Shown here: in pieces, positions 25,712-59,695 of the stretch
Numbering within the stretch: position 1 is the first letter of the stretch
Layout: every line of letters begins with the position of its first letter
Translations under genes and position numbers: made by a program
From: Hexactinellida sp. DTS-2022
Taxonomy: Eukaryota; Porifera; Hexactinellida
Assembly: GCA_028753945.1 (NCBI GenBank)
Contig: JAPNXP010000008.1
Span: 744,001-808,000, forward strand
Reading direction: 5' to 3'
Length of the DNA: 64,000 nucleotides
Notes under the pieces: generated by a model
Databases searched by the model: none
Seen by the model: only the letters and a program-made list of their open reading frames with translations
What the model was told of the DNA's origin: nothing

Positions 25712-26347
25712 TTAGGGTGTACTGCCTGTTCGCAGGCTCCGTGGGGGTTTGAAGGAGCGATAAAAGTAGTCGGTGTCTTGAGTGAAGGTGACTGAGGGAT
25801 GCTTCTTTCGCAGACGGGCGACGGTGCAGGTTTCGGGTTCGGTGGATGTCCGGGTGGCATTGGTAAAGTGGGGAGATAAAAGTAGGAGAATCTGCCATGA
25901 CAGATGCGGATGGTCAGCTAAAGCGAGATGCTTTAGGAACCGGTGGTTATGGTGGAGTTGATTAAGGGTTCGGGCAGTGGCACCAGTCTGGCCTATATAG
26001 ACGGTAAGGTGATGTGGGGCAAAAATGGCGTAAACGCATCTATACATTAGGCATGGCATAATTGGATGGTGTAAAGTGGTCTCGAAGAAGATGTGGTAGG
26101 ATTCACAGACGGTACAACCATCTGTGGAGGTGGTTCGCGGACAGCGAGCGAATTTAGATAGGACTGACGGATTGACGTAGGAGAGTAACGATTTGAGGGG
26201 AGCCATTGGTAGAATGGGAATGAGACGATAGGGGCGAAGGGCAAAAAGTTGTAATTGGTTTATGGTTGGACGGGTGGCAGAGTATGCATAGTTCAGTGTG
26301 TCTATGTCAGATGGAGGTTCTTTAGGGGTTTCGGGGGGAAATAACAA
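25712..26347 (-). pseudogene. PLE 2 C-terminal linker and GIY-YIG endonuclease domain
   Basis: A Cys pair (GCTVCESY) precedes MPCLMYRCVYAIF and TVYIGQTGATARTLNQLHHN. This gives the GIY-like strand, the YIG strand, then Arg and His at the expected spacing; a Glu lies further on (TEPET). GIY-YIG nucleases nick target DNA for PLE insertion. This copy keeps the nuclease residues that the better-preserved PLE at 53.8 kb has lost. Confidence 0.72.
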
Positions 26348-27680
26348 ATTGAAGCAATTTCGGTTATTAACTCCAACGCATCACGACCGGAGGTTCGGAG
26401 ATTTCCCAAAAATCTTGAGAGGCAGGTATGTAGTGCTATGTTGGCGTCAGAGCAAATGGCAGAGATCCGGTGAACGGTTGAGAGGTATGATTTTAGTACC
26501 ATTCGGCGATGGGGGTGATATGAGTGGGGGTGAATGGGTATTGGGGAACGGAGTTGGTGTGGATTAGGGCAGAATTCTTTAAGATCTGCATTGTAGCCGG
26601 CATCCTGGAAGGTGTTGAGTTCTTCTGGGAAGAGAAGGAATGGTGCAAATACAGGTAGTATAACTTCTGGTGAATGGGTAGAATATAAATTATCAAAGTA
26701 TAGTGAAATGGCAACAGGTGGGACAAGGTTTAATCGTGTGTCTAATTGATAGGCAGTTACGAGACGGGCTATTTCGGGGGCGAGGGGTAAACCCATGGGG
26801 AAACCTGTGGTACCGAGATGATAGTATAAATCTCCATTGGTGAGGAAGTTGTAGGCGAGGAGGTTCTCAAGAACTACTCGTTCTGAGGTTGCGGTGGGGT
26901 GGTAGTGGTCGAAGGCTTCTAGAGCAAGGTCATGTGAAATGGAAGGGTAAAAAGCTTTAATATCATAATGATATATGGCAGGGGGAGGACCATAGATTGA
27001 TAATTGTTCATTACTTTGTCGACATCGTCAGCAAGTAACGGGTGTTGAGCAATGATTGGTGAGAAGAGGGGTCGTAATCAGGCTTTCACCAGGCAAAATT
27101 TCCCGCGCGCCTAGATTAAGATTGAGCTCGCTCACACGCGCCTAAAATGATCAATTTGTATTACGGCCTTGGGAGCATCTCTTGATTTCCACGCGCCTAG
27201 AAAAGTTTTCTTTTTAAATTACGCGCCTGGAGGCGCGTCGCATACGCCTGGATGAAACCCTGGTCGTAATAGCTTAGAAGCTAATGAGAAAATGGAAGAG
27301 GAGTGGTTTGTGATAGGGCGGACAAAGGGGTTACTGCGTAGGGATCAAAGGTGTATATGTTAGTATGGGCAGTTAGGGTCGAAGGGAAAGTGTCTTTATG
27401 GGCCTTTACCTTAAAATAGAATGTGGGTGGGCGATCGTCACAATACCAGATGATCGGTCGGTGGAGAGGAGGCGAAGGGCATATTTCGAAATTAATTCAC
27501 GAAAAGCTGAGAGGAGCAGGGAAAATGGCTTGTGTTTAGTTCGGTGAGCAGCTGGTAGTGGAAATCTGGTAAGTGGGGGTGCATTTAAATCCAAATAAAG
27601 GATAGAAAAGTAAAGAGTTAAGAAGGGGTTAGAATTGGGAGGGGCAGGTGTTTGAAATGCTAGTCCGTAAGTCATAAGAC
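26302..27680 (-). pseudogene. PLE 2 reverse transcriptase fragments
   Basis: 27406-27675 holds the N-terminal RT region (HRTKHKPFS...). 26302-26796 holds the block MGLPLAPEIARL (RT motif B) and the active-site region SLYFDNLY, where the second Asp of the usual YxDD is Asn. HPHSYHPHRRMVLKSYLST follows, as in the thumb of PLE RTs. Several frameshifts and a 184-bp MITE break it. Not functional. Confidence 0.7.
27079..27262. mobile_element. hAT MITE inside PLE 2, TSD GTCGTAAT
   Basis: The ends CAGGCTTTCACCAGGC and GCCTGGATGAAACCCTG are imperfect inverted repeats with CGCGCCTA motifs inside. Exact TSD at 27071-27078 and 27263-27270. A related right end (CTCCTGGATAAACCCCTG) lies near 43750. Confidence 0.85.
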
Positions 27681-36754: not shown

Positions 36755-37583
36755 TAGGTGACCCATGGCCTACTATATTATACGGCTAGATAAGTCAAGT
36801 ATTTGCCATTTTATTTCCAGGCCAGTGTTTACTTTCTAATTGCTCGTAAAATATATCACCTATTGTCATGGAATAAACTAAACTTAGGTTTTCAAATACG
36901 CTGGAAACATCTAAAATACTTTTGTGAATGATTTCTCATCGTATTTAACCACAATGACGTAATCAAATATACATACCCATATATAGTAATTAATACTAAA
37001 TATGAAGTAGAGATTTGAAGTAGAGATTGAAGTAGAGATTTTGTGAACATTAGCTAAATAAGTCCCAAGAACGGTCATTTAACTGACTGGGCAACATGTA
37101 CGTCGTCAAACAGCACTTTTAAGACTTAGATTAAAATCTAACTATACATTTCAAAAAAATACAAAACATATGGTTTGATAACAATAGCATAATTATTTAC
37201 TTACATTGACGTTGAAAAGAATTTGAGTGAAAGGAATGACATAATTTGTAATGTAGTTAGTTTTTTTACAAGAAAAATGCATTAGGAAAAAAACGGCAAA
37301 GTTAGATTCCCAAATTATCTAAAAAATTAACATTTATTTAACATGATTGCCATATATGGGTATGTATATTTGATTACGTCATTGTGGTTAAATACGATGA
37401 GAAATCATTCTCAAAAGTATTTTAGATGTTTCCAGCGTATTTGAAAACCTAAGTTTAGTTTATTCCATGACAATAGGTGATTTATTTTACGAGCAATTAG
37501 AAAGTAAACACTGGCCTGGAAATAAAATGGCAAATACTTGACTTATCTAGCCGTATTATATAGTAGGCCATGGGTGACCTAAG
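36755..37583. mobile_element. foldback element inside the OTU domain
   Basis: The ~240-bp arms start AGGTGACCCATGGCCTACTA and are near-perfect reverse complements (36755-36998 and 37340-37583). The central part has tandem GAAGTAGAGATT units. A fragment of the same terminus is at 43238-43265. Confidence 0.82.
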
Positions 37584-49555: not shown

Positions 49556-51029
49556 GCTTCCTTTCAAGATGTACGCCTTCTCTACAATTCTGAACGATAC
49601 AGTTTAGCAAAACTAGCCCCTCACTTGACTGTAAAAGCTTGTTTTCCATCTAGTTTAGAAAGGCAAAATGTAAAATTGGTTTTGAAGGTTGTTAGCGAAC
49701 TTACACAATCTGCTCTTGAAATCCAAAATGAAAGTCGTTGTCCGGAGTATCGTAATAATACATCTAGTTTCGTAAGTATCCTTCTTACTCTTTGGAAAAT
49801 ATTCAATATCAATACGCCGTTCAAAGGGACCCGTTTAAATGATAGCCTCTCAAGACCGTTGATCTTAAACGATGAACGATTTTATTTTTGACACGTATAG
49901 TATTTTGGCTAGATGCTTGGCAGGATTTACCTGACAAAACGGGTAAATTGAGTAAGCAAACGTATACTAGTTTTATACACGCCTGTACCAGAGTGGACCA
50001 TGGGTCAACATTTTTGACCCATGACCCATCTGACCCATCCCATTTCTGACCCATGCCCCATTGACCCATTGACCCATGACCCATCGAGTGACCCATTGAC
50101 CCATCACACAATTTTAAATATCTATATACTATACTGTAACATTAACAGAATAATAGAATAACAGTATAAATTTCCTCAACAAACCTACTTGTTGCAATGT
50201 TGAATATGTTTAGTCTTTCAATGCACATAAATGTTATAATAATAATGATGATGATGAGTGATTCGTATTTTAACTGAAGAATACATTGAAATTCCTAATG
50301 GGTCATGGGTCATGGGTCACGGAGCCGTGACCCATGACCCATCTGACCCATCGATTTAGGTGACCCATCTGACCCATGACCCATGACCCATCTGACCCAT
50401 CGATTTAGGTGACCCATCTGACCCATGACCCATGACCCATCGACCCATGGTCCACTCTGGCCTGTACTGCCTTACCACTTATAACTAACCATCTAACTGA
50501 AAATTGTGGCTTTTCTTACGTATTATCATCCTTTTTACAAACTGACCCGTTGGAACACCATTTTGGACTCTACCGTATGATGTCGGGTTCGAATTACCAT
50601 ATTTCTGACCTTCAGATTCTTGAAACCGAGCGTCGTCTTAAACTTTCTAGTATATTAAACATGTTTGCAGATCAACAAGACGCTTTCCAAACGATTCAGA
50701 CATTTGTAAAGTCTTTTTCTACCCCCTCTGATACATCTAGTGATGATGGAATAGCTGTAATGCCTTTTCTTGATGAAATTGGCGATCTATCATCCATTGA
50801 ATGCTCTCAACAAATCCTTCAGTCGTTAGCTTTTATCGCAGGCTATACGGTCCATAAGTTCTTAAAAAGATCTCCGGAATGCCATGTGTGCACTGATACT
50901 TTAACTTATGATAAAGAATTTGTTTTTGATGTTGAATCACATACTGAGTTTAAGCTCTTACAATTAACAGATCGGGGCGGACTTAAGTATCCGTCCGAGC
51001 CTGTTCTTACTTCAGTTATAACTTTATGA
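49556..51029 (+). pseudogene. P-family (THAP9-like) transposase, C-terminal part, split by a MITE
   Basis: SFQDVRLLYNSERYSLAKLA and CFPSSLERQNVKLVLKVVSE run in one frame to a stop at 49890. Then WLDAWQDLPDKTGKLSK continues in the next frame up to the MITE at 49989. After the MITE come LEHHFGLYRMMSGSNYHISD and QILETERRLKLSSIL. FGLYR..SGSN is the P-transposase C-terminal block, followed by AFIAGYTVHKFLKRSPECHVC with a Cys pair. P-family enzymes are cut-and-paste transposases with an RNase H-like core. No N-terminal THAP domain was found. A frameshift and insertion make it inactive. Confidence 0.8.
49989..50459. mobile_element. hAT MITE (GACCCATGACCCAT arrays), TSD GCCTGTAC
   Basis: CAGAGTGGACCATGGGTC and GACCCATGGTCCACTCTG are exact inverted ends. 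Exact TSD at 49981-49988 and 50460-50467. Arrays of TGACCCATC line both sides. It interrupts the P-family transposase. Confidence 0.92.
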
Positions 51030-51096
51030 AAGATAATGATTGCAATAGAAAATAATAATCAGCTGTTGACTTTGCTTGTAGACGGTCCCTCTAGAA

Positions 51097-52028
51097 CAGT
51101 GATTCTCAAACTGGGGTCCGCGGTCTCTTTGGGACAGCGAAGCACTTTTTGTTGGACCGCGAGATGTAGTTAAAACCCAAAAATAATTAGTATACATTTT
51201 AGAATTAGTAATCATTTAATGTGACTAGAAAAAGTTCGTAATATAGTTTACTCTGCCGACTACTATGTAGTGGGCCAGGACTGATTTCATTGCCTTGGTT
51301 AGTTAGTTGTCCACTCCTTGTGGTACAGGGTGTCATATGGTCCCTTGAATTTCGAAATGTCAAGAATAACCTCTAAGAATCACTTTGGTAATGTATTGGA
51401 AATTGGGATAGTGGCATTATATTGTATCAGCATTCCAGAGCTCCGCCCCAAGACCGTCCTGGGGGATTACCTCGCCCCTCAGGACCCCAGCTAGGGTTGC
51501 CATTGTTTCATAAATTCACGACCCTCTTGTAACAAATCCTGCATCCTCCTTGGATTCTTTAAACTAGTTTGTTTTATAAGGTATTACATTCCGTAATAAA
51601 TATACAGTTATGAAAAATTATTCGCAATGCCTGGATATCTAGCACAAATAATACTTTATTAGAATTAATTGCAATGAATTCAGCAAGGATTATAGACCCT
51701 CTAATTCGGATTCAGCCCAAGGGAAGAAAAAATCTAAAATTTTAGCTGTTCTGATATATTGAATATCTAATGGAGCACTATTCCCACAAAACCCTATCTA
51801 CAGTGCCTCCAATTCAAATCCTACATGTCTGCACAGTTATAATTGTAGATTTTGTATGTAACATAGATGTAGCTTTTGCTCTTTTGCTGTTATCCTTTAT
51901 AGTTTTTTCAAAGTATACGAATACTGGATTAGAGATTTTTGTGCAGAAATTCTTGGGGACCGCAAGAAGTTTCTAAATCACATAGGGGGCCAAAACCCCA
52001 TTTTTTTTTTAAAGTTTGAGAACCACTG
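51097..52028. mobile_element. non-autonomous hAT element, TSD CTCTAGAA
   Basis: The ends CAGTGATTCTCAAACTGGGG and AAAGTTTGAGAACCACTG are inverted; exact TSD at 51089-51096 and 52029-52036. No transposase frame. The termini resemble those of the hAT at 60075-63165, so that lineage could have moved it. A degraded AGCTGTxC-type hairpin is at 51735-51860. Confidence 0.88.
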
Positions 52029-52036
52029 CTCTAGAA

Positions 52037-52358
52037 GGTTATTAGTAGAACTCACCTTGATATACATGGAAAATGATGATGATATTGCTATCTGGAAATC
52101 AAATTGTATTAATTGCGATGTGTACAGTTGGAGTATTTTGAGCAAGTTAATCTTTACTGCTGCTAATTGTTTTCTTGCCAATAAAATTAAATTAAAAACT
52201 ACAACTCCTCTGTGCTTCAAATAGGTATCGATAAACTAAATTGAAAAAATTCTCATTAATTATTATTTACCATTACAGAATATTTATTGTTGTTAGCACT
52301 TAATTTCTTTATATTTGTATCTTAGATTTCGCGCTATCAAGTATACATAATTGTCAAG

Positions 52359-52359
<1 letters not shown>
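52037..52359. other. no gene seen
   Basis: Presumed 3' flank of the P-family element; no terminal repeat identified. Confidence 0.35.

Positions 52360-52361
<2 letters not shown>

Positions 52362-52393
<32 letters not shown>
52362..52393. repeat. (GA)n microsatellite
   Basis: Sixteen uninterrupted GA dinucleotides. Confidence 0.95.
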
Positions 52394-52397
<4 letters not shown>

Positions 52398-52659
52398 TAG
52401 GAGAGAGGAGTTCCAAGACATGTTGTGTTTCGTATATGTGTTGTGTATTACAGTAGTTTATATGTTTGTATTTTGTATGTAGGTTTACTTATTATCATTA
52501 AAATATATTAATTCCAAATAAATGTATGGGTTTATTCTTCACAGGATATACTTGGTTGGGAAATATTTGACTTGATATGCACTTAAGTGCTTTTATGTTC
52601 ACTCCCATAAGATTATTCCTAAAGTCCATCTATTACCGCATCCATGGTACATCTACTGT

Positions 52660-52785
52660 CTGAGTAAAGGTTTAATAATAGTTCAGAAGGAAATAGTAAA
52701 ATAGTGAAAATAAGTAATAACTTTCGTCTATTTATAGACTCTTCAGTTTTGTTTAAGGTGTTAAGTTTGAATGGTGTGTGGGTGC
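52660..52785 (-). repeat. PLE 1 terminal repeat, 3' copy
   Basis: Identical by eye to 57369-57494 over 126 bp; contains the ribozyme-like core at 52719-52746. Confidence 0.9.
52719..52746 (-). ncRNA. hammerhead-ribozyme-like core, 3' copy
   Basis: The minus strand reads CTGAAGA, a 14-nt helix GTCTATAAATAGAC, then GAAA. These are the conserved CUGANGA and GAAA boxes around helix II (5-6 bp, small loop). A short helix III (AGT/ACT) can follow. Helix I is weak and the cleavage site is uncertain. Hammerheads in terminal repeats are a known PLE feature. Confidence 0.6.
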
Positions 52786-53190
52786 TTTAATTTAGGTCTG
52801 TTACCAGAGTCGGTTTAGTATTGATTTGGTAGTGTTCTGTGCTGTATTGCCTGCTGTGTAGTGCATACTTTTTCTGTATTAATTCTACACTGCTTGGGTA
52901 ATGCATACTGTATAGTACTAGCTTGCAACTTGTTGCAGATGCTGTAGCTGTACTATGTGCTATGTAGTAGCATTGCAGTTTCTTGCAAATGCTGTAGTTG
53001 ATTTGAATTGAATTGTGTTGTTGTTGCTTTTGCTTTTTAGGTGTTGTGGGTTTTTTGATTTAATTAAGTTGTAGGTGGAATTGGTTTTGTTGGTTGTTTT
53101 AGGTGGAATTGAGTTGGTTGTTTTGTTTTGAATAGAGTTGAGTTGCTGGTGTATGTTTTGGAGTGTAGCATTCGTCCTTGTTGTTGGTTG

Positions 53191-53283
53191 GTGTTTGTAT
53201 AAGTACTATACAGTGTATTGGCAACGCGCCGGTGTTTTGTGCACAAAGCTGTTGCTGGCGCGCCCTTGAGTGGCAGTTGGTTT
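53191..53283 (-). repeat. 93-bp direct repeat in the PLE 1 3' UTR, copy 1
   Basis: One mismatch to 53559-53651. It contains ACGCGCCGG ... TGGCGCGC, able to form a stem, and GTGCAC in the loop. Confidence 0.85.
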
Positions 53284-53558
53284 GTTTGTTTATTTATAGG
53301 AGTGATGCTACACACTTTAGTAGTTGGGAGCTTTGGACCGATACCCCATACTAGTTAATTTAAAAGCTTGGAATTTTACAATTACCAACGAAATTAAACC
53401 AAGCTAGATAGGGTTTTTACCAATGTACCATAGCTACTCGGTTTGGAAGTTTAAGTTTTACTCCAGAACCCGATTTCACACATTAAAAAGCACACGCTTT
53501 TTCCAGCACTGGAGGTTACGATGCAAGTTAATTTGCGAAACACGATTCATGGAGCCGC

Positions 53559-53651
53559 GTGTTTGTATAAGTACCATACAGTGTATTGGCAACGCGCCGG
53601 TGTTTTGTGCACAAAGCTGTTGCTGGCGCGCCCTTGAGTGGCAGTTGGTTT
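53559..53651 (-). repeat. 93-bp direct repeat in the PLE 1 3' UTR, copy 2
   Basis: Partner of 53191-53283, 368 bp away, between the RT stop codon and the terminal repeat. Possibly a duplicated 3' recognition structure for the RT. Confidence 0.85.
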
Positions 53652-53764
53652 TTATTCATCAATAAAATCGCGTTTTCTGCGAGTCTGGTTTTTCGGTCGC
53701 TTGGGTTTGATTTAATGTATGTGAGGCTTGGTTTTATATTCGGTTTGGTGTCAGTTGGTGAATT

Positions 53765-55942
53765 TCAGAGTGGTATTGTATTTGTTGGGGTGTTACTTTT
53801 TGTGTAGAAGTGTCGTAGGTATTTCCTTTCGTGGATCGTAGCATTAGGGAATTCGTTTTGGGCTATCTTTTGCCATTTTTCTATTTGTTTGTCCTCAGTT
53901 TTGTATGGGCGTTTGTGTGTAGCGGGGTACGTGTATAGGATCTGCCATGCAAGTTCTCTGCCGTTGAGAATGCTTTGTATCGTATCGTTTGTGTTTGAGA
54001 GTCTCAGTGTTGTGTTGCTTGTGTTAGCCGACGTGATGAATAGGTGTTTGCGGTCTGTGTTTATTTCGTCTTTATGGTGCAGTATGTATATGCATCGCCA
54101 TCGCAGGCATGGGACTATAGGTGTGGTTGTTTTCCTTTTAATGATTGGTATATAGTTTTTGCATTTTGTGCATTCGTTATTGCTGCAAGTGTGCCAGTGG
54201 TGTTTTGTATGCTCGCTTGGCTTTTGGTAGCTTAGTACACCTTTTAGTGGGGCTAAGGGCACGTTTGGAATGAGATGGTAATCCTTTTTAGTGATAGGTT
54301 GGAGTTGCTTTTTTGTTGGTCGGGTATCCGAGAAGGTGTATTTAATTATTGGTTTGAATTCCCAGGTTTGTTTGGTTGTATGTTTCGGGAAGTATGCAAT
54401 GTTGGTTAGTTTAGGTATTACCTCTGTTGGCTTGTGGCCGAGTCGTGTTAGGGCTGGTACGTATTTTCTTATGAGGTAGTCTAGGGTGTTTGCCGGGTTT
54501 GTGCCGATTCGTGTGGCTCTAAATGCTGAGCTTACGTATGTATTAGCACACATTTTTTTCGAAGGATGGTGTTTGTGTGGGTGGAGTAGTACAGGTTGTC
54601 TATACTTTTGTTGTATAGGTATGAATTCTTTGGTAGCGGGTAGGTATCTACTGTCCTGTGTAGTATTCGACTCTGTTGGAATGAGTTTATAGGGTTGGAG
54701 TGGTAGTTCTTCGATTGGGTATGTGGCGGCCACGTCATCAAAGTAAATTGTGAGTGTTTGCCATGGTGGGACGGTGTAGTTGTTGAGTAGGTATGCAGTA
54801 CACATTCGTGCCAGTTCGGGTGCGAGGGGTAAACCCATTGGGATACCGGTGTTTCCCAAATGGTAAATGAGTGCTCCGTCGGTGGTGAAGTTGAAGTTTA
54901 AGAGGTGTTTAAGGATCCTTAGTTGGTTGTTGAGGTATGGGTTGAAGAATGCAAAGGCATCGATGACTAAGCTGTGTGGGGTGTTGGGGTAGAAGGCTTC
55001 TATATCGCCACAGAATATCTCCTCTGGGGGGCCATATCGATTGAGTTGGCTGATGGTTTCGAAGATGTCCTGCGTTAAGTACCGGCAGTTCTCGATAATG
55101 GGTGTGATGTGTTCACGAAGGAATCTGCTTGTACAAGCCGTTATTGAATTTTTGTGGTTGACGATGGGCCGGGCAATTTTGGTAAGTTCCTTGGGTCCTA
55201 TTGTGTATGTATAGATTTCAAGGTATCGTGTCTGGGTTGTCGTAAATGAGGGTTTATGTGTTTTGATCTTAAAATACATGGTTGGGGGCCGATCGTCGGT
55301 ATTGTGAAGGTTTGTGTTAGGTTGTAGTAGTGTTAACGCCTGTTTTAGTTTCAGGATAGATGAGATGTATTGATCTGCGTTAACTATGTGGCCGGTGTTG
55401 GCTAGGTATTCGCTATAGATTGCTTCGAGTGTGTTGCTGTGTATAAGTATGAGACCTGGTCCTTTGTCTGCGGAAATAATTTTTAGCTTTTCGACTTTTA
55501 GGTTGTCTTTGTACTTTTTTAGGTGTTTAGTGAATTTGTCGTGTGTCCGTTTTTCGTACGGTTTTAGATTGAAGTGGGTTAGTGGTGGTAAGTTTTCCTG
55601 CAGATTTAGGCAGTGCTCGAATGGGGTTAGGAATGGGGTTGGTGTGGACTCTTGGACTGTTTGGAAATTGAGTCCATACTCGACTAGTTTTTGTAGCGTT
55701 ACTGCTGTTTCCAGTTTAACGAAGGGTTGTATAAATATTGGTGGTGGTTTGTAACTCCATTCCGTTGGTAGTGGTAGGGGTAGGGGTGGTGTAATTTCTT
55801 TGGTGAGGTGTTGCGTTTTGGTTGTTGTCATTAGTTGGTGGTGTAATGCTGCCTTCGAGATTGGGTCGTTCTCGTTTCCGCATAAGTCGCAAGTGTGATT
55901 CTGGTAACAGTCGGTGTGTAGGGAGGGAGGGAGGGATAGCAC
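53765..55942 (-). CDS. PLE 1 reverse transcriptase with degenerate C-terminal GIY-YIG domain
   Basis: 725 residues. A CDLC pair lies at about 18-21. ISADKGPGLILI at 156-167 and KIKTHKP at 225-231 are early RT blocks. Motif A GDIEAFYPNTPH spans 312-323, motif B GIPMGLPLAPELA 366-378, and the active site YFDD 400-403. HPHKHHPSKK follows at 454-463, as in PLE thumbs. A linker with CSNNECTKC at 586-594 leads to a GIY-YIG-like region (about 617-690): the first strand CIYIL is present, but the YIG strand reads LFITSANTS and the usual catalytic Arg/His context is not evident. The RT motifs look intact. The ORF opens 16 bases after the stop of the 134-codon frame, in the same frame. Confidence 0.88.
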   Translation of the reverse strand: MLSLPPSLHTDCYQNHTCDLCGNENDPISKAALHHQLMTTTKTQHLTKEITPPLPLPLPTEWSYKPPPIFIQPFVKLETAVTLQKLVEYGLNFQTVQESTPTPFLTPFEHCLNLQENLPPLTHFNLKPYEKRTHDKFTKHLKKYKDNLKVEKLKIISADKGPGLILIHSNTLEAIYSEYLANTGHIVNADQYISSILKLKQALTLLQPNTNLHNTDDRPPTMYFKIKTHKPSFTTTQTRYLEIYTYTIGPKELTKIARPIVNHKNSITACTSRFLREHITPIIENCRYLTQDIFETISQLNRYGPPEEIFCGDIEAFYPNTPHSLVIDAFAFFNPYLNNQLRILKHLLNFNFTTDGALIYHLGNTGIPMGLPLAPELARMCTAYLLNNYTVPPWQTLTIYFDDVAATYPIEELPLQPYKLIPTESNTTQDSRYLPATKEFIPIQQKYRQPVLLHPHKHHPSKKMCANTYVSSAFRATRIGTNPANTLDYLIRKYVPALTRLGHKPTEVIPKLTNIAYFPKHTTKQTWEFKPIIKYTFSDTRPTKKQLQPITKKDYHLIPNVPLAPLKGVLSYQKPSEHTKHHWHTCSNNECTKCKNYIPIIKRKTTTPIVPCLRWRCIYILHHKDEINTDRKHLFITSANTSNTTLRLSNTNDTIQSILNGRELAWQILYTYPATHKRPYKTEDKQIEKWQKIAQNEFPNATIHERKYLRHFYTKSNTPTNTIPL

Positions 55943-55957
55943 GTGTCCCTGACTCCC

Positions 55958-56362
55958 TCAACAAAAAGGGCTGTAGTTTGATCTCTCGATTAGTTTCGGG
56001 ATCGGTGTGATGGTTATGTCATCTGTCCTCCAGATTGTTGGTGTCTCGTGGTGTGGGTGGCTGCAGGTGTTATTTAGGCATTCGGCTGACCGTTTGCTTG
56101 GGCACTGTTTACCGTAGCTTGAACATTGTTTGTGTTTATGTTCATTTCTAGGGTTGCGTGGTCGTCCGCAGCGTGCGCATATCCCGTGGTTTTTGCACGC
56201 TTCGATTAGGGCTGGGTAAATTTGTTTGCGTTGCTCGTCGGTTATTTTGTCTGGTGCTGCCTGTAGAAATGTTTGTCTTTTTTCGAAGCTGGACGACAAT
56301 GGGCATCCGCGGCTTTCAGTGTGGTTGGGATATCCCTCGGTAATGGTACCATGTATCTCCAT
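55958..56362 (-). CDS. PLE 1 Cys-rich frame between ORF1 and RT
   Basis: 134 codons, same frame as the RT ORF and separated from it by one TGA. CARCGRPRNP, then C...C...C and NTCSHPHHE, suggest zinc binding, perhaps for RNA. It overlaps the end of ORF1 by about 120 bases in the -1 frame across an A6 run. It could be expressed by frameshifting, by its own AUG, or be part of a single ORF broken by two mutations. Confidence 0.65.
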   Translation of the reverse strand: MEIHGTITEGYPNHTESRGCPLSSSFEKRQTFLQAAPDKITDEQRKQIYPALIEACKNHGICARCGRPRNPRNEHKHKQCSSYGKQCPSKRSAECLNNTCSHPHHETPTIWRTDDITITPIPKLIERSNYSPFC

Positions 56363-57336
56363 GAATCGTTTCCGAAGCTTGGTTGGTAGTTGGAGGGCGT
56401 ACTCGTCGATACTTCGATTGCGAGTTTTTGCTCAATGTTAGCGGTATATTTTTGGTCGGTTGTTGTTAGGATAGTTGCTGCTGTTAGGCACCGAGTGCAC
56501 GGGAATTGCGTTTTGTACATGGGGCGTGTGTCCTGTGGACGTTTTGGTTTAGGTTGGATTGGTAAGCGGTCTTTTGTAATGGAAGCGTATGTGGCGTTCC
56601 GTGGTCCTCTTGTGTTGGCTATGTTTGCCAAGTGTTTGTTATTTCTTAGTTTTGTTTGCAGTAGTGTAGCTAAGAATGCACGTCCCATGTCATTGGGGTT
56701 TAGTCGTAGTATAGATGAGATGGTTAGGTATAGGTGGCTCTTAAATCCTGGTAGGTATAGGAGGGGGAGTTCGGTTAGTTGTTGGGTGTCGGTGGGTAGA
56801 TTCAGTAATCTTTCGAGTCCGTAGGCTCGGGCTTGTTGGGTGTATGGTGTTGCGGTTCCAGTTGCAGTGTATTGCACTTCGTATGGGATGTCGAGGTTCA
56901 GTTTTTCATGTATGGTTGCCACTAGGAGATTGACGTAGAACGTCTGTATAGAGTGTGGGACCGAGCTTAGGCACTCGTCGATGCTACGTGCTAGCGATAG
57001 TTTGTCGCTTGCGCTTAGTTTGGAGCTTGACGGATCAAAGAGCGGGTAGTAATTGGTGTCCTGGAGGAGTTGGTAGAATGTAGAGTCTTTTGGGATAGTG
57101 GGGTGCAGTTTGGCTAGGATGCCAGTGTCTGCCTGATTGTTGATTAGGTGTGCTGGTGAATTCACCGAGGGGTCGGGTTCATTAGTAGGAATGGTTTGTG
57201 GGTTGATTGTCGCTGTAATAGTGGAGCTTGAATCAAGTTCCGTAGAGTTCCTACTAGTGGGGTTGCGGATTTGTGCTCCGCGTCCTCTGGTTGAATTACC
57301 AGCGGTTGGTCGTCGCGGTGGAAGGTTAGTTGCCAT
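56242..57336 (-). CDS. PLE 1 ORF1 protein
   Basis: 364 residues from the first ATG downstream of the 5' repeat. The N-terminus is basic and low-complexity (PPRRPTAGNSTRGRG). The middle is helical (DKLSLARSIDECLSSVPHSI; FYVNLLVATIHEKLNLDIPY; NDMGRAFLATLLQTKLRNNK), and CTRCLTAAT is a Cys pair. I know no match. By position it may be a gag-like or ORF1-like RNA-binding protein. Most PLEs have a single ORF, so this is unusual. Confidence 0.75.
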   Translation of the reverse strand: MATNLPPRRPTAGNSTRGRGAQIRNPTSRNSTELDSSSTITATINPQTIPTNEPDPSVNSPAHLINNQADTGILAKLHPTIPKDSTFYQLLQDTNYYPLFDPSSSKLSASDKLSLARSIDECLSSVPHSIQTFYVNLLVATIHEKLNLDIPYEVQYTATGTATPYTQQARAYGLERLLNLPTDTQQLTELPLLYLPGFKSHLYLTISSILRLNPNDMGRAFLATLLQTKLRNNKHLANIANTRGPRNATYASITKDRLPIQPKPKRPQDTRPMYKTQFPCTRCLTAATILTTTDQKYTANIEQKLAIEVSTSTPSNYQPSFGNDSWRYMVPLPRDIPTTLKAADAHCRPASKKDKHFYRQHQTK

Positions 57337-57368
57337 CGCGATTTAGTAAAATTGAAGAGAGCTTTTGA

Positions 57369-57494
57369 CTGAGTAAAGGTTTAATAATAGTTCAGAAGGA
57401 AATAGTAAAATAGTGAAAATAAGTAATAACTTTCGTCTATTTATAGACTCTTCAGTTTTGTTTAAGGTGTTAAGTTTGAATGGTGTGTGGGTGC
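57369..57494 (-). repeat. PLE 1 terminal repeat, 5' copy
   Basis: Identical by eye to 52660-52785. It lies just upstream of ORF1 (ATG 57336), so it probably also holds the promoter. Confidence 0.9.
57428..57455 (-). ncRNA. hammerhead-ribozyme-like core, 5' copy
   Basis: Same core as in the 3' repeat: CTGAAGA, helix II GTCTATAAATAGAC, GAAA. Two cores 4.7 kb apart could release a unit-length RNA from a longer transcript, if active. Confidence 0.6.
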
Positions 57495-57960
57495 CAGGAC
57501 ATTATCCTTTCCTAGGAGGTACTGAATATTGTAGTTCATTGACTCTAGTTCAATCAGCCAACGGGAAAACTTCCCTCTGGGATCCCTCTGACGTCTCAAC
57601 CATTGCAATGGGTTATGGTCCGTCCTTATCTCGACCGATGAAGCAGCTTGTAAATACTTCCGCCATTTTCTCGCCGCAACAACAATTTCCCATGTCTCCA
57701 ACTCTGAAGCACTGTAGTTTTTCTGCGGCTTATTTAACCTACTTGAAAAGAAGGAAATTGGCCTAAACTTTCCCTCCTCGTCTACTTGAGATAGCACAGC
57801 TCCTATTCCCTCTCTTGATGCATCACACTCCATGTAAAATGTCTTATCCATTGAGGGAACACTAGGCATACCGAATTTGAAGTTAACGCTGCACGTAAAC
57901 GCTTAAAACTCTTTTCTTGAACATCCCCCCCCATCTGCATGGGGCATTCCCTTGCGTACA
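57495..57960 (-). pseudogene. Ty3/gypsy RNase H and connection region
   Basis: The minus strand from 57960 reads SEMAAPLYARE (connection) and then, in the frame to 57869, FYMECDASREGIGAVLSQ, the RNase H start with its first Asp. YSASELETWEIVVAARKWRK has the catalytic Glu, RTDHNPLQWL the second Asp, and NIQYLLGKDNVL the end. The PLE cuts the frame here. A frame change separates the two parts. Confidence 0.85.
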
Positions 57961-58030
57961 GAGGAGCAGCCATTTCTGAAAACTTATCAATAAAGTCCAG
58001 ATAATTGTTTATTAAACCAGGGAATTCTTT

Positions 58031-58975
58031 AATTAGCGTAGGCCTAAAACAGTATTGTTACTTATTGATATCCCTTAATCCGGTAATGCTAGACAGAGGA
58101 AATGTATTATTGTCGTATAGGAAGTCATATTTTAGGAGTCCAACGGTCATATTGGTTTTTCGAAAATATCTGTGGAATTTAGGTTATGCGATGTTCACAC
58201 CTTTCCATATATGGTAATATAGTTAAAATCTCGAGATTAATTAACTTTATACATATGAAATTTATTATTGGCGAATGGGAAATGGGAATTCATATTTAGG
58301 GACTCAGTAGATCACATTGATTTACCTAAGGCGTTCCCCTTAGCCTATATTATTATTTGGCACTCTCCACAGGAGGATTGCCCCGACCCTATTTATAAAT
58401 TAAGATAATAAATAATCCCATACATAATCCCATACTCTGAATTTATTTATCATAATCATTAGCAGGGGCGGCGGAAGCGGTCAGGCTTGTCAGGCCAAAG
58501 GAATAGATATAAAAAGGAATAGATTTGAAAGAAACTTATCAAGATTTTTTAATAAACAACATTATTACAGATATCTGATAGGTAAGAATTAGCTAAACTA
58601 CAAAACATGGTCGGGGCAATCCTCTTGTGGAGAGTGCCAAAAATAATATAGGCTAAGGGGAACGCCTTAGGTAAATCAATGTGATCTACTGAGTCCCTAA
58701 ATATGAATTCCCATTTCCCATTCGCCAATAATAAATTTCATATGTATAAAGTTAATTAATCTCGAGATTTTAACTATATTACCATATATGGAAAGGTGTG
58801 AACATCGCATAACCTAAATTCCACAGATATTTTCGAAAAACCAATATGACCGTTGGACTCCTAAAATATGACTTCCTATACGACAATAATACATTTCCCG
58901 TGTCTAGCATTACCGGATTAAGGGATATCAATAAGTAACAATACTGTTTTAGGCCTACGCTAATTTTACCGTAAA
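58031..58975. mobile_element. 0.94-kb hairpin (foldback) element inside gypsy pol
   Basis: Arms 58031-58388 and 58609-58975 are almost perfect reverse complements (about 360 bp each) around a 220-bp loop. Ends AATTAGCGTAGGCC. No ORF. It separates the RT from the connection/RNase H of the gypsy element. The loop holds GGGGCGGCGGAAGCGGTCAGG, a hAT-like terminus. Confidence 0.88.
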
Positions 58976-59695
58976 ACGAAGTTTACAGTCCCTATATTAA
59001 AGAAGTCCCTGGTTAAACCGAGGAAGGATTTGAGCTCTCGTAATGTAGTGGGGCAAGCGTGGTCTATAATCCGTTGAATTAAAGAGGATATGGGACGCTG
59101 TCCATTTGAAGAAATAAGATGCCCCACAAATTCGACCTCCTGAACCGCGAAGATGCATTTTTCTTTTCTGAGTTGCATTTTACCTTGGCGATATAATTCA
59201 AGTGTATTCTGAAGGTGACTGATATGTTCCCGAAAGCTCTGTGAATACACCAGCGTGTCATCTACATATGCTAAGCTCGTAGGTTCCTCACGAAGTACCA
59301 TATCAATAGCTCGCTGGTACGTCGCGGGAGCGTTCGTTAATCCAAAGGGCATGAAACTAAATTCGTATTGGCCTTGCGGGATTATAAATCCTGTCTTGGG
59401 GATATACTTTTCTCTAATAGGTACTGACCAGTACGCTGAAGCGCCATCCAATCTCGAGTAAAACGCACTCCCATGTAATTTATCTAGCATATCCCTAACG
59501 TCTGGGATGGGATAGACATCCTTAGCGTAATGTCATTTAGTCCCCTATAGTCGACGGCAAAACGAAGTGATTTATCTTTCTTCTTCACTAGTACCACTCT
59601 AGCCGCCCATGGGAAGCAATACGGTCTCACGATACCGTTTTCCAACATCTGATCTAGTTGATTAAATACCTCCCTTTCCGCTTAGGGGGACATCC
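58976..59695 (-). pseudogene. Ty3/gypsy reverse transcriptase
   Basis: The upstream part (to about 59515) has VVLVKKKDKSLRFAVDYRGL. After a frame change comes LHGSAFYSRLDGASAYW (motif A) then GFIIPQGQYEFSFMPFGLTN (motif B), and the active site AYVDDTLVYS. KCIFAVQEVEFVGHLIS and LKSFLGLTRDFF end the domain at the hairpin insertion. Not functional as it stands. Confidence 0.88.

Follow-up and report, generated by a model that had tools for sequence, protein, structure and literature searches.

What do the terminal repeats of a Penelope-like retroelement in a glass sponge encode, and could an RNA made from them cut itself? The element in question lies on the minus strand of a 64,000-nt stretch of contig C17 from Hexactinellida sp. 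DTS-2022 (C17:744001-808000, hereafter the window), and its copies were sought in the whole genome (112.4 Mb, 18 contigs). Judging from sequence comparison, we give a probability of roughly 0.8 to the reading that this is a Penelope-like retroelement with two open reading frames (ORFs) and a minimal type I hammerhead ribozyme in each of its pseudo-long terminal repeats (pseudo-LTRs), for which self-cleavage is predicted.

Hammerhead motifs in the pseudo-LTRs

The element is flanked by two direct repeats of 129 bp that are 99% alike. An initial annotation of this DNA had described two identical 126-bp repeats bracketing the element, each with CUGAAGA, a 14-nt helix and GAAA on the coding strand. 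Both observations were borne out. The sole mismatch between the 129-bp repeats is at coding-strand position 127, outside the identical 126 bp, and both repeats read CTGAAGA, then the 14-nt self-complementary GTCTATAAATAGAC, and then GAAA on the coding (minus) strand. The repeats thus contain the hammerhead core CUGANGA - helix II - GAAA. The features concerned are the following.

57366-57494, minus strand: 5' pseudo-LTR; 126 bp of it (57369-57494) are the same as in the 3' copy
57407-57459, minus strand: predicted hammerhead of the 5' repeat, placed by the covariance model and the comparison of cut sites
57459-57456 with 57410-57407, minus strand: helix I of the predicted 5'-repeat hammerhead
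57455-57449, 57448-57435 and 57434-57431, minus strand: CTGAAGA, helix II and GAAA of the 5'-repeat hammerhead core
Between 57411 and 57410, minus strand: predicted cut in the 5' repeat (CUA^U)
52657-52785, minus strand: 3' pseudo-LTR; 126 bp of it (52660-52785) are the same as in the 5' copy
52698-52750, minus strand: predicted hammerhead of the 3' repeat, also placed by the covariance model and the comparison of cut sites
52746-52740, 52739-52726 and 52725-52722, minus strand: CTGAAGA, helix II and GAAA of the 3'-repeat hammerhead core
Between 52702 and 52701, minus strand: predicted cut in the 3' repeat

The pattern CTGANGA-N8..20-CGAAA has four matches in the window against 0.17 expected, a number reached in 0/100 shuffles (maximum three). 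These are the two repeats and two overlapping matches at 19.75 kb. At least 15 genome matches were found for the repeat and at least 71 for ORF2. A family-derived pattern, CTGANGAG-N-CGAAAGT-N-ACTY, occurs at 25 places in the genome, compared with 0 for the reversed control, and the motif is carried by three subfamilies: A (the window, C4, C2, C16 and others), B (C7, C9, C17:948k and C12) and C (C16:1.21M, C4:4.31M, C13, C3 and C15). The ORF2 of B and C is 51-52% identical to that of A.

CTGAAGA...GAAA is kept across A, B and C while helix II changes compensatorily, its strands reading GUCUA/UAGAC in A, GAGCU/GGCUC in B and GUGGU/GCCAC in C. Two of the three helix I pairs change on both sides among the B and C rows. 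A first covariation test used five B and C rows aligned with plain MAFFT, with the structure disregarded, and 500 shuffles. Seven cells changed on both sides and the covariation score was 0.314, each value being reached by 2/500 shuffles. Two-sided change was seen in 4 of the 14 pairs, two of them in helix I (74/500 shuffles), together with six further pair types (198/500). Because so many shuffles reach the numbers of pairs and of pair types, the cells and the score carry the weight of this test. Sliding the partner columns by 1-3 lowered the paired cells from 88% to 29-48%. The second test added A rows fitted to the model (23 rows, 13 of them distinct) and again used 500 shuffles. Two-sided change was then found in 8 of the 14 pairs and in 20 cells, with a score of 0.275 (0/500 shuffles for each), and there were 14 further pair types (6/500). 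Helix II was 98% paired, and no shuffle (0/500) reached the percentage paired.

A covariance model, R1, was built from B and C only and run on 33 sources (the window and 32 of 60 loci; 180 kb). It matches both window repeats at 27.7 bits (E 2.5e-5). This match to a model built without A, together with the compensatory changes, supports the reading that the window repeats carry a divergent minimal type I hammerhead. The proposal of a Penelope-like element with a divergent hammerhead in each repeat therefore stands, and two of the checks suggested with it, a search for further copies and a comparison of covarying helices, were positive: the family pattern was found at the 25 places in three subfamilies, and helix II, as well as helix I between B and C, changes compensatorily.

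Several observations weigh against the hammerhead. The subfamilies are of common ancestry, so that the model score is in part plain sequence similarity. In the 23-row alignment, which had been fitted to the structure, the placing of some A rows is wrong and the row window:7443 matches by chance. Monomer folding is no better than that of shuffles (z -0.35 for B, -0.42 for C and -1.07 for A), and the lowest-energy fold of C, and of part of A, is not a hammerhead. Infernal with the Rfam hammerhead models, also suggested as a check, gave no match above threshold. Rfam had no match in the window at the gathering score, and no Rfam hammerhead was found at 52600-57560 at E up to 10 or in the B repeat. 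With the window repeat alone, Hammerhead_3 aligned where it should, with a score no better than chance (13.1 bits, E 3.1). A genome-wide search with RF00163 found no match, but the controls were equally without a match, so this result is empty. Helix III has only 2-3 sound pairs, so a stable helix III was not found; its absence is usual in Penelope hammerheads (PMC6155905, PMC7761336).

Tandem arrays and insertion context

The element forms tandem arrays: C9 has 3.2 copies of a 4719-bp unit, C7 has 2.2 of 4698 bp and C4 has 1.8 of 4723 bp, and apart from the edges none of these arrays has an internal mismatch. Arrays without internal mismatch would fit an origin by rolling-circle reverse transcription of ribozyme-made RNA circles, and retrozyme RNAs are known to circularise after hammerhead cleavage (PMC7229834). 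We nevertheless regard this origin as rather improbable. The C7 and C9 arrays have common flanks in a common order, namely a 382-nt satellite 5' of the array (99.1% alike over 698 nt) and a 212-nt satellite 3' of it (94.6% over 464 nt). Their numbers of full units, two and three respectively, are unequal, which suggests a later change in unit number, as by unequal exchange. This point is not decisive, since the 3' junctions of the two arrays do not coincide (a difference of about 21 nt) and a satellite resembling the element's 3' untranslated region (UTR) contains the 5' boundary. The units of C7 and C9 are 99.0% alike, and the likeliest explanation is that the two arrays are one insertion copied between chromosomes, with the unit number changed later. 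With flanks alike and unit number changed in this way, the arrays alone are neither evidence for nor against circular templates.

The 382-nt satellite and the direct repeat inside the 3' UTR of subfamily B are one and the same sequence; the element thus either seeded a satellite or took one up. There are 6.8 copies at 100% in L042:1-2601 (C9:2541400-2544000), and 16 full units and a part, at 81-82%, on C11:6287948-6294400. No ribozyme was found in this satellite. A pair of 3' UTR direct repeats is present in every subfamily (A, 93 nt with a spacing of 368; B, 112 nt with 382; C, 104 nt with 527), and the 3' UTR of A has almost no similarity to those of B or C in blastn. The pair in the window is located as follows.

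53559-53651, minus strand: 3' UTR internal direct repeat, first coding-strand copy, 93 nt
53191-53283, minus strand: second copy of this repeat, at a spacing of 368

A clean target duplication or an empty site was sought but could not be read, as each of the 40 scored matches to the joined flanks covered one half only. The 5' flank (57495-59490) is Ty3/gypsy pol, which by eye continues in L063 as GKDNFLADHLSR, and the 3' flank (49639-52659) is a different high-copy repeat, found at 36 places besides that of the window (L064). The unlike repeats on the two sides imply that the insertion came with a rearrangement or sits on an older boundary. Elsewhere in the window, an inverted repeat at 36755-37581 has arms of 236 nt that are 97% complementary and 355 nt apart.

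Predicted cleavage site, 3' end and promoter-like letters

The predicted cleavage triplets are CUU^ in B, CUC^ in C and CUA^U in A. Helix I and the triplet had been described as weak in the initial annotation, and for the triplet this concern is eased. A cut at CUU^A in subfamily A is disfavoured, since A would then face A at the closing position of helix I in all six copies examined (closing pair in 0/6), whereas a cut 10 nt past the nearest CUU, at CUA^U, has the closing pair in 6/6. The helix I of A is still short and partly mismatched, with four pairs in 3/6 copies when CUA^U is used and fewer in the rest. Such a short helix I, a helix III of about two pairs and the broken frames of the window copy could mean that the subfamily A hammerhead is a decayed relic of an active ancestor, with no present cleavage. 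We consider this unlikely, because the block CTGAAGAG...GAAAGTTATTACTTATTTT is nearly invariant in 11 A rows despite diverged flanks, and A copies with open ORFs exist on C4.

It had also been supposed that the ribozyme might act as a dimer, which found support in one subfamily. In B, helix III is palindromic, and only 78/2000 shuffles are as stable. No support was obtained in A, in which 2000/2000 shuffles are as stable (a longer A variant lay outside the test), or in C (1575/2000). Dimer action was therefore rejected as a general rule, the palindromic helix III being present in B only.

The 3' end of the element lies 42 nt (A), 45 nt (B) and 41 nt (C) beyond the predicted cut. The common end is TTTAC(T/C)CAG in 7/8 A copies read, TTAAACAAA in 3/3 B copies and TTAAATTATTA in 2/3 C copies, and the 3' pseudo-LTR of the window terminates in ...TTTACTCAG, as in most other A copies. 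These readings left out the A places C16:1.40 Mb and C18:5.23 Mb and the C places C15:3.55 Mb and C16:1.218 Mb. Two copies speak against a fixed end: the A copy at C1:11.48 Mb has a deviating 3' end, and the C copy at C3:4.91 Mb stops within the repeat. No telomeric repeats were seen by eye at 13 3' junctions (8 A, 3 B and 2 C).

The position of this end bears on what the ribozyme could do. The initial annotation had proposed that transcripts self-cleave into unit RNAs used for retrotransposition, which our results do not support. A cleaved linear RNA is unlikely to be the full template, because its 3' end would lack the reverse transcriptase (RT) start site, located 41-45 nt past the cut. In PAc, the Poseidon element of Anolis and the one Penelope element studied biochemically, cleavage was dispensable for insertion in vitro, the ribozyme depended on protein, and the cut was not marked by the ends of RNA-seq reads (PMC11167929). 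The mostly fixed 3' end of the sponge element resembles the internal RT start and tail of that Anolis element. We propose that multi-unit transcripts would weakly self-cut at the CUH^ of every pseudo-LTR, and might need to be dimeric or to be assisted by the element's protein to do so. Reverse transcription would start at the fixed site past the cut, on uncut (or circularised) RNA, and would copy back through the ribozyme and often stop early, giving partial tandems flanked by pseudo-LTRs.

The hammerhead region also contains letters that resemble a promoter.

57440-57445, minus strand: TATAAA in the helix II region of the 5' repeat; the initiator-like A of TCACTA is at 57414, 31 nt downstream
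52731-52736, minus strand: TATAAA in the helix II region of the 3' repeat; the initiator-like A is at 52705
57380-57385, minus strand: ATTAAA near the repeat end, with the 3'-repeat copy at 52671-52676; present in B and C copies too

TATAAA was found in the helix II region at 25/25 places located by the family pattern, which did not demand it, with the surrounding stem letters differing. The distance from its first T to the A of the initiator-like YYACT is 31 nt in A, 29 nt in B and 31 nt in C. Five type III hammerheads read in the same genome have other helix II loops, so TATAAA is no general need of the hammerhead fold. When the A of YYACT is taken as +1, the predicted cut falls between +4 and +5. 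These letters could form a nested module, in which the helix II region would act as a TATA box in DNA, the strand of helix III and the cut would act as the initiator, and the same letters would fold as a hammerhead in RNA. We offer this tentatively and hold it to be doubtful, because the TATA-YYACT spacing by itself occurs in the window at a chance level (3 found, 1.74 expected, 21/100 shuffles), parts of the repeat outside TATAAA and the initiator are also conserved, and the ancestry is common. If the nested module exists, RNAs from the promoter would begin 4 nt before the cut, and the ribozyme of the next unit would end the RNA nearly at the next start. Read-through RNAs would be trimmed to nearly the same 5' end as promoter-made RNAs. 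A comparable arrangement is L1Tc Pr77 of Trypanosoma cruzi, a short 5' sequence that is a promoter as DNA and a self-cleaving ribozyme as RNA; unlike the case here, its ribozyme is of the hepatitis delta virus type and it is the internal promoter of a non-LTR element. A literature search for a Penelope hammerhead combined with a TATA promoter found no report, most subscription papers being outside its coverage. In all three subfamilies ATTAAA stands near the 3' end, where it might serve as a poly(A) signal or belong to the RT start site.

That the conserved block is a core promoter (TATA and initiator) and not a ribozyme, the stem and CTGAAGA/GAAA being protein-binding DNA or due to ancestry, would agree with the constant TATAAA, with YYACT following after 29-31 nt, and with a rotifer Penelope repeat for which a TATA box and a TCACT initiator have been suggested (PMC3846280), but is very unlikely, as it leaves unexplained both the two-sided changes in helices I and II and the CTGAAGA/GAAA core at hammerhead spacing, and the TATA-YYACT spacing by itself is at the chance level given above.

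Coding regions and relation to known elements

The coding features of the window copy, all on the minus strand, are listed below.

56242-57336, minus strand: ORF1 (Cys/His-rich in its C-terminal part), 364 aa, frame-broken; the remainder is in another frame at 55958-56362
53765-55942, minus strand: ORF2, RT, 725 aa from GTG; the N-terminal end is out of frame in the window copy
55964-55970, minus strand: CCCTTTT, a slippery-type heptamer at the end of ORF1, with a stem-loop downstream
53768-54115 (approximate), minus strand: C-terminal part of ORF2, at the expected place of a GIY-YIG endonuclease, with YIG replaced by FIT

ORF2 contains DIEAFYP, GIPMGLPLAP and YFDD, which we take to be RT motifs. 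The window ORF2 matches RVT_1 weakly (22.5 bits against a cut-off of 29.6), and only the subfamily C copy exceeds the cut-off (31.1 bits). The best NCBIfam matches are far below cut-off (Drt3a, E 1.9e-6 to 0.02), and a PDB search at E<=1 gave three matches with no RT among them. Both frames are open in the A copy on C4 (461 codons in ORF1 and 749 in ORF2) and in subfamily B (493 codons in ORF1 and 749 in ORF2), and L014, a subfamily C copy, has an open frame for ORF2 but not for ORF1. The ORF2 of the C4 copy is 96% identical to that of the window.

Where the copies are open, the two ORFs overlap at CCCUUUU, ORF2 being in the -1 frame relative to ORF1, and a stem-loop lies a few bases on. In the window the overlap reads CCCUUUUU at 55963-55970, and this sequence with its downstream stem-loop is kept in A, B and a further family, L021. 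The stem-loop after the heptamer has z values of -3.5 and -3.1 in two B sequences, -2.2 in the A copy on C4 and -0.7 in L021. Subfamily C keeps the stem, and its heptamer is imperfect (ACCUUUU); a search for CCCTTTTT missed the C copy, which reads ACCTTTTT. From these sequences we propose that in A and B the CCCUUUU and the stem-loop would act as a signal for gag-pol-like -1 frameshifting from ORF1 into ORF2, which would probably be produced as an ORF1-ORF2 fusion.

The C-terminal part of ORF2 keeps PCxRxRC and has lost the YIG signature in all three subfamilies, the position reading FIT, FVT, YIH, YLH or YMH, compared with YIGQTG in another Penelope-like element of the window. The latter is a remnant on the minus strand at 25712-26796 that has kept this endonuclease signature, and no hammerhead core was seen nearby. 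Pfam found GIY-YIG in 0/7 proteins and likewise none in the YIGQTG-bearing one, so the Pfam result is uninformative.

Other candidate hammerheads and relatives were also considered. The Penelope family L028 (C1:11.19 Mb, 7.3 kb) has CTGAAGA and a short stem inside ORF2, without GAAA, and was discounted; its copy ends were not located. In viral contigs no relatives were found by protein, 144 pattern stretches failed in tblastn, and three DNA-pattern matches without a stem were taken as chance. The genome also contains a dispersed repeat of ~190 bp with canonical type III hammerheads (for example at L043:1500-1700, L044, L022:290-440 and L046:860-1000). All 68 candidates scored, from 12319 at first look, match RF00008 at E<=1, with 64 above the cut-off; among controls 3/14 genomes match, none above the cut-off. 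Some of these hammerheads are paired, 313-653 bp apart. Metazoan genomes show mostly type I hammerheads (PMC7229834), so this type III family may merit its own study.

Hammerheads in Penelope-like elements have been published (Cervera and de la Pena 2014; Lunse et al. 2017; via PMC6155905, PMC7761336 and PMC7229834), and the present element therefore adds to a known kind. Like the published ones, it has a minimal type I form with little helix III in pseudo-LTRs, in tandem and possibly dimer-acting. In all three subfamilies it is set apart by the TATAAA of the helix II region and by the initiator-like letters at the cut, as far as the published descriptions go, their sequences being outside the comparison. 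PAc, the Poseidon element of Anolis carolinensis (PMC11167929), also has a pseudo-LTR, units in tandem, a 'tail' end and a hammerhead shortly upstream of the RT start. PAc has one ORF beginning inside the hammerhead and an active GIY-YIG, whereas the sponge element has two ORFs, with the predicted ribozyme ahead of ORF1, and has lost the YIG signature. The Penelope families of Adineta vaga (PMC3846280) share the pseudo-LTR, a putative TATA box and TCACT initiator, and partial tandems, but their spacing is 20 bp, and the word 'hammerhead' is absent from the available text of that paper. Terminons and endonuclease-deficient telomeric Penelope elements (PMC6431247, PMC7761336) likewise have a hammerhead near the 3' end and an RT without a usable endonuclease signature; the sponge element differs in having no telomeric repeats at the 3' junctions read and in retaining a degenerate C-terminal domain. 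The retrozyme NbRZ1 (PMC12029980) also combines a promoter and a hammerhead in one terminal repeat, but this is a plant LTR with a type III hammerhead, and its start site is upstream of the ribozyme, so that the 5' part is cut off.

The role of the Penelope hammerhead was called a mystery in a 2020 review (PMC7761336). The elements described here add three separated subfamilies in which the predicted hammerhead is kept by compensatory change and is missed by standard models, with both ORFs open in copies of A and B and ORF2 open in C. If promoter and ribozyme coincide, the purpose of the Penelope hammerhead would become a simple question of 5'-end mapping.

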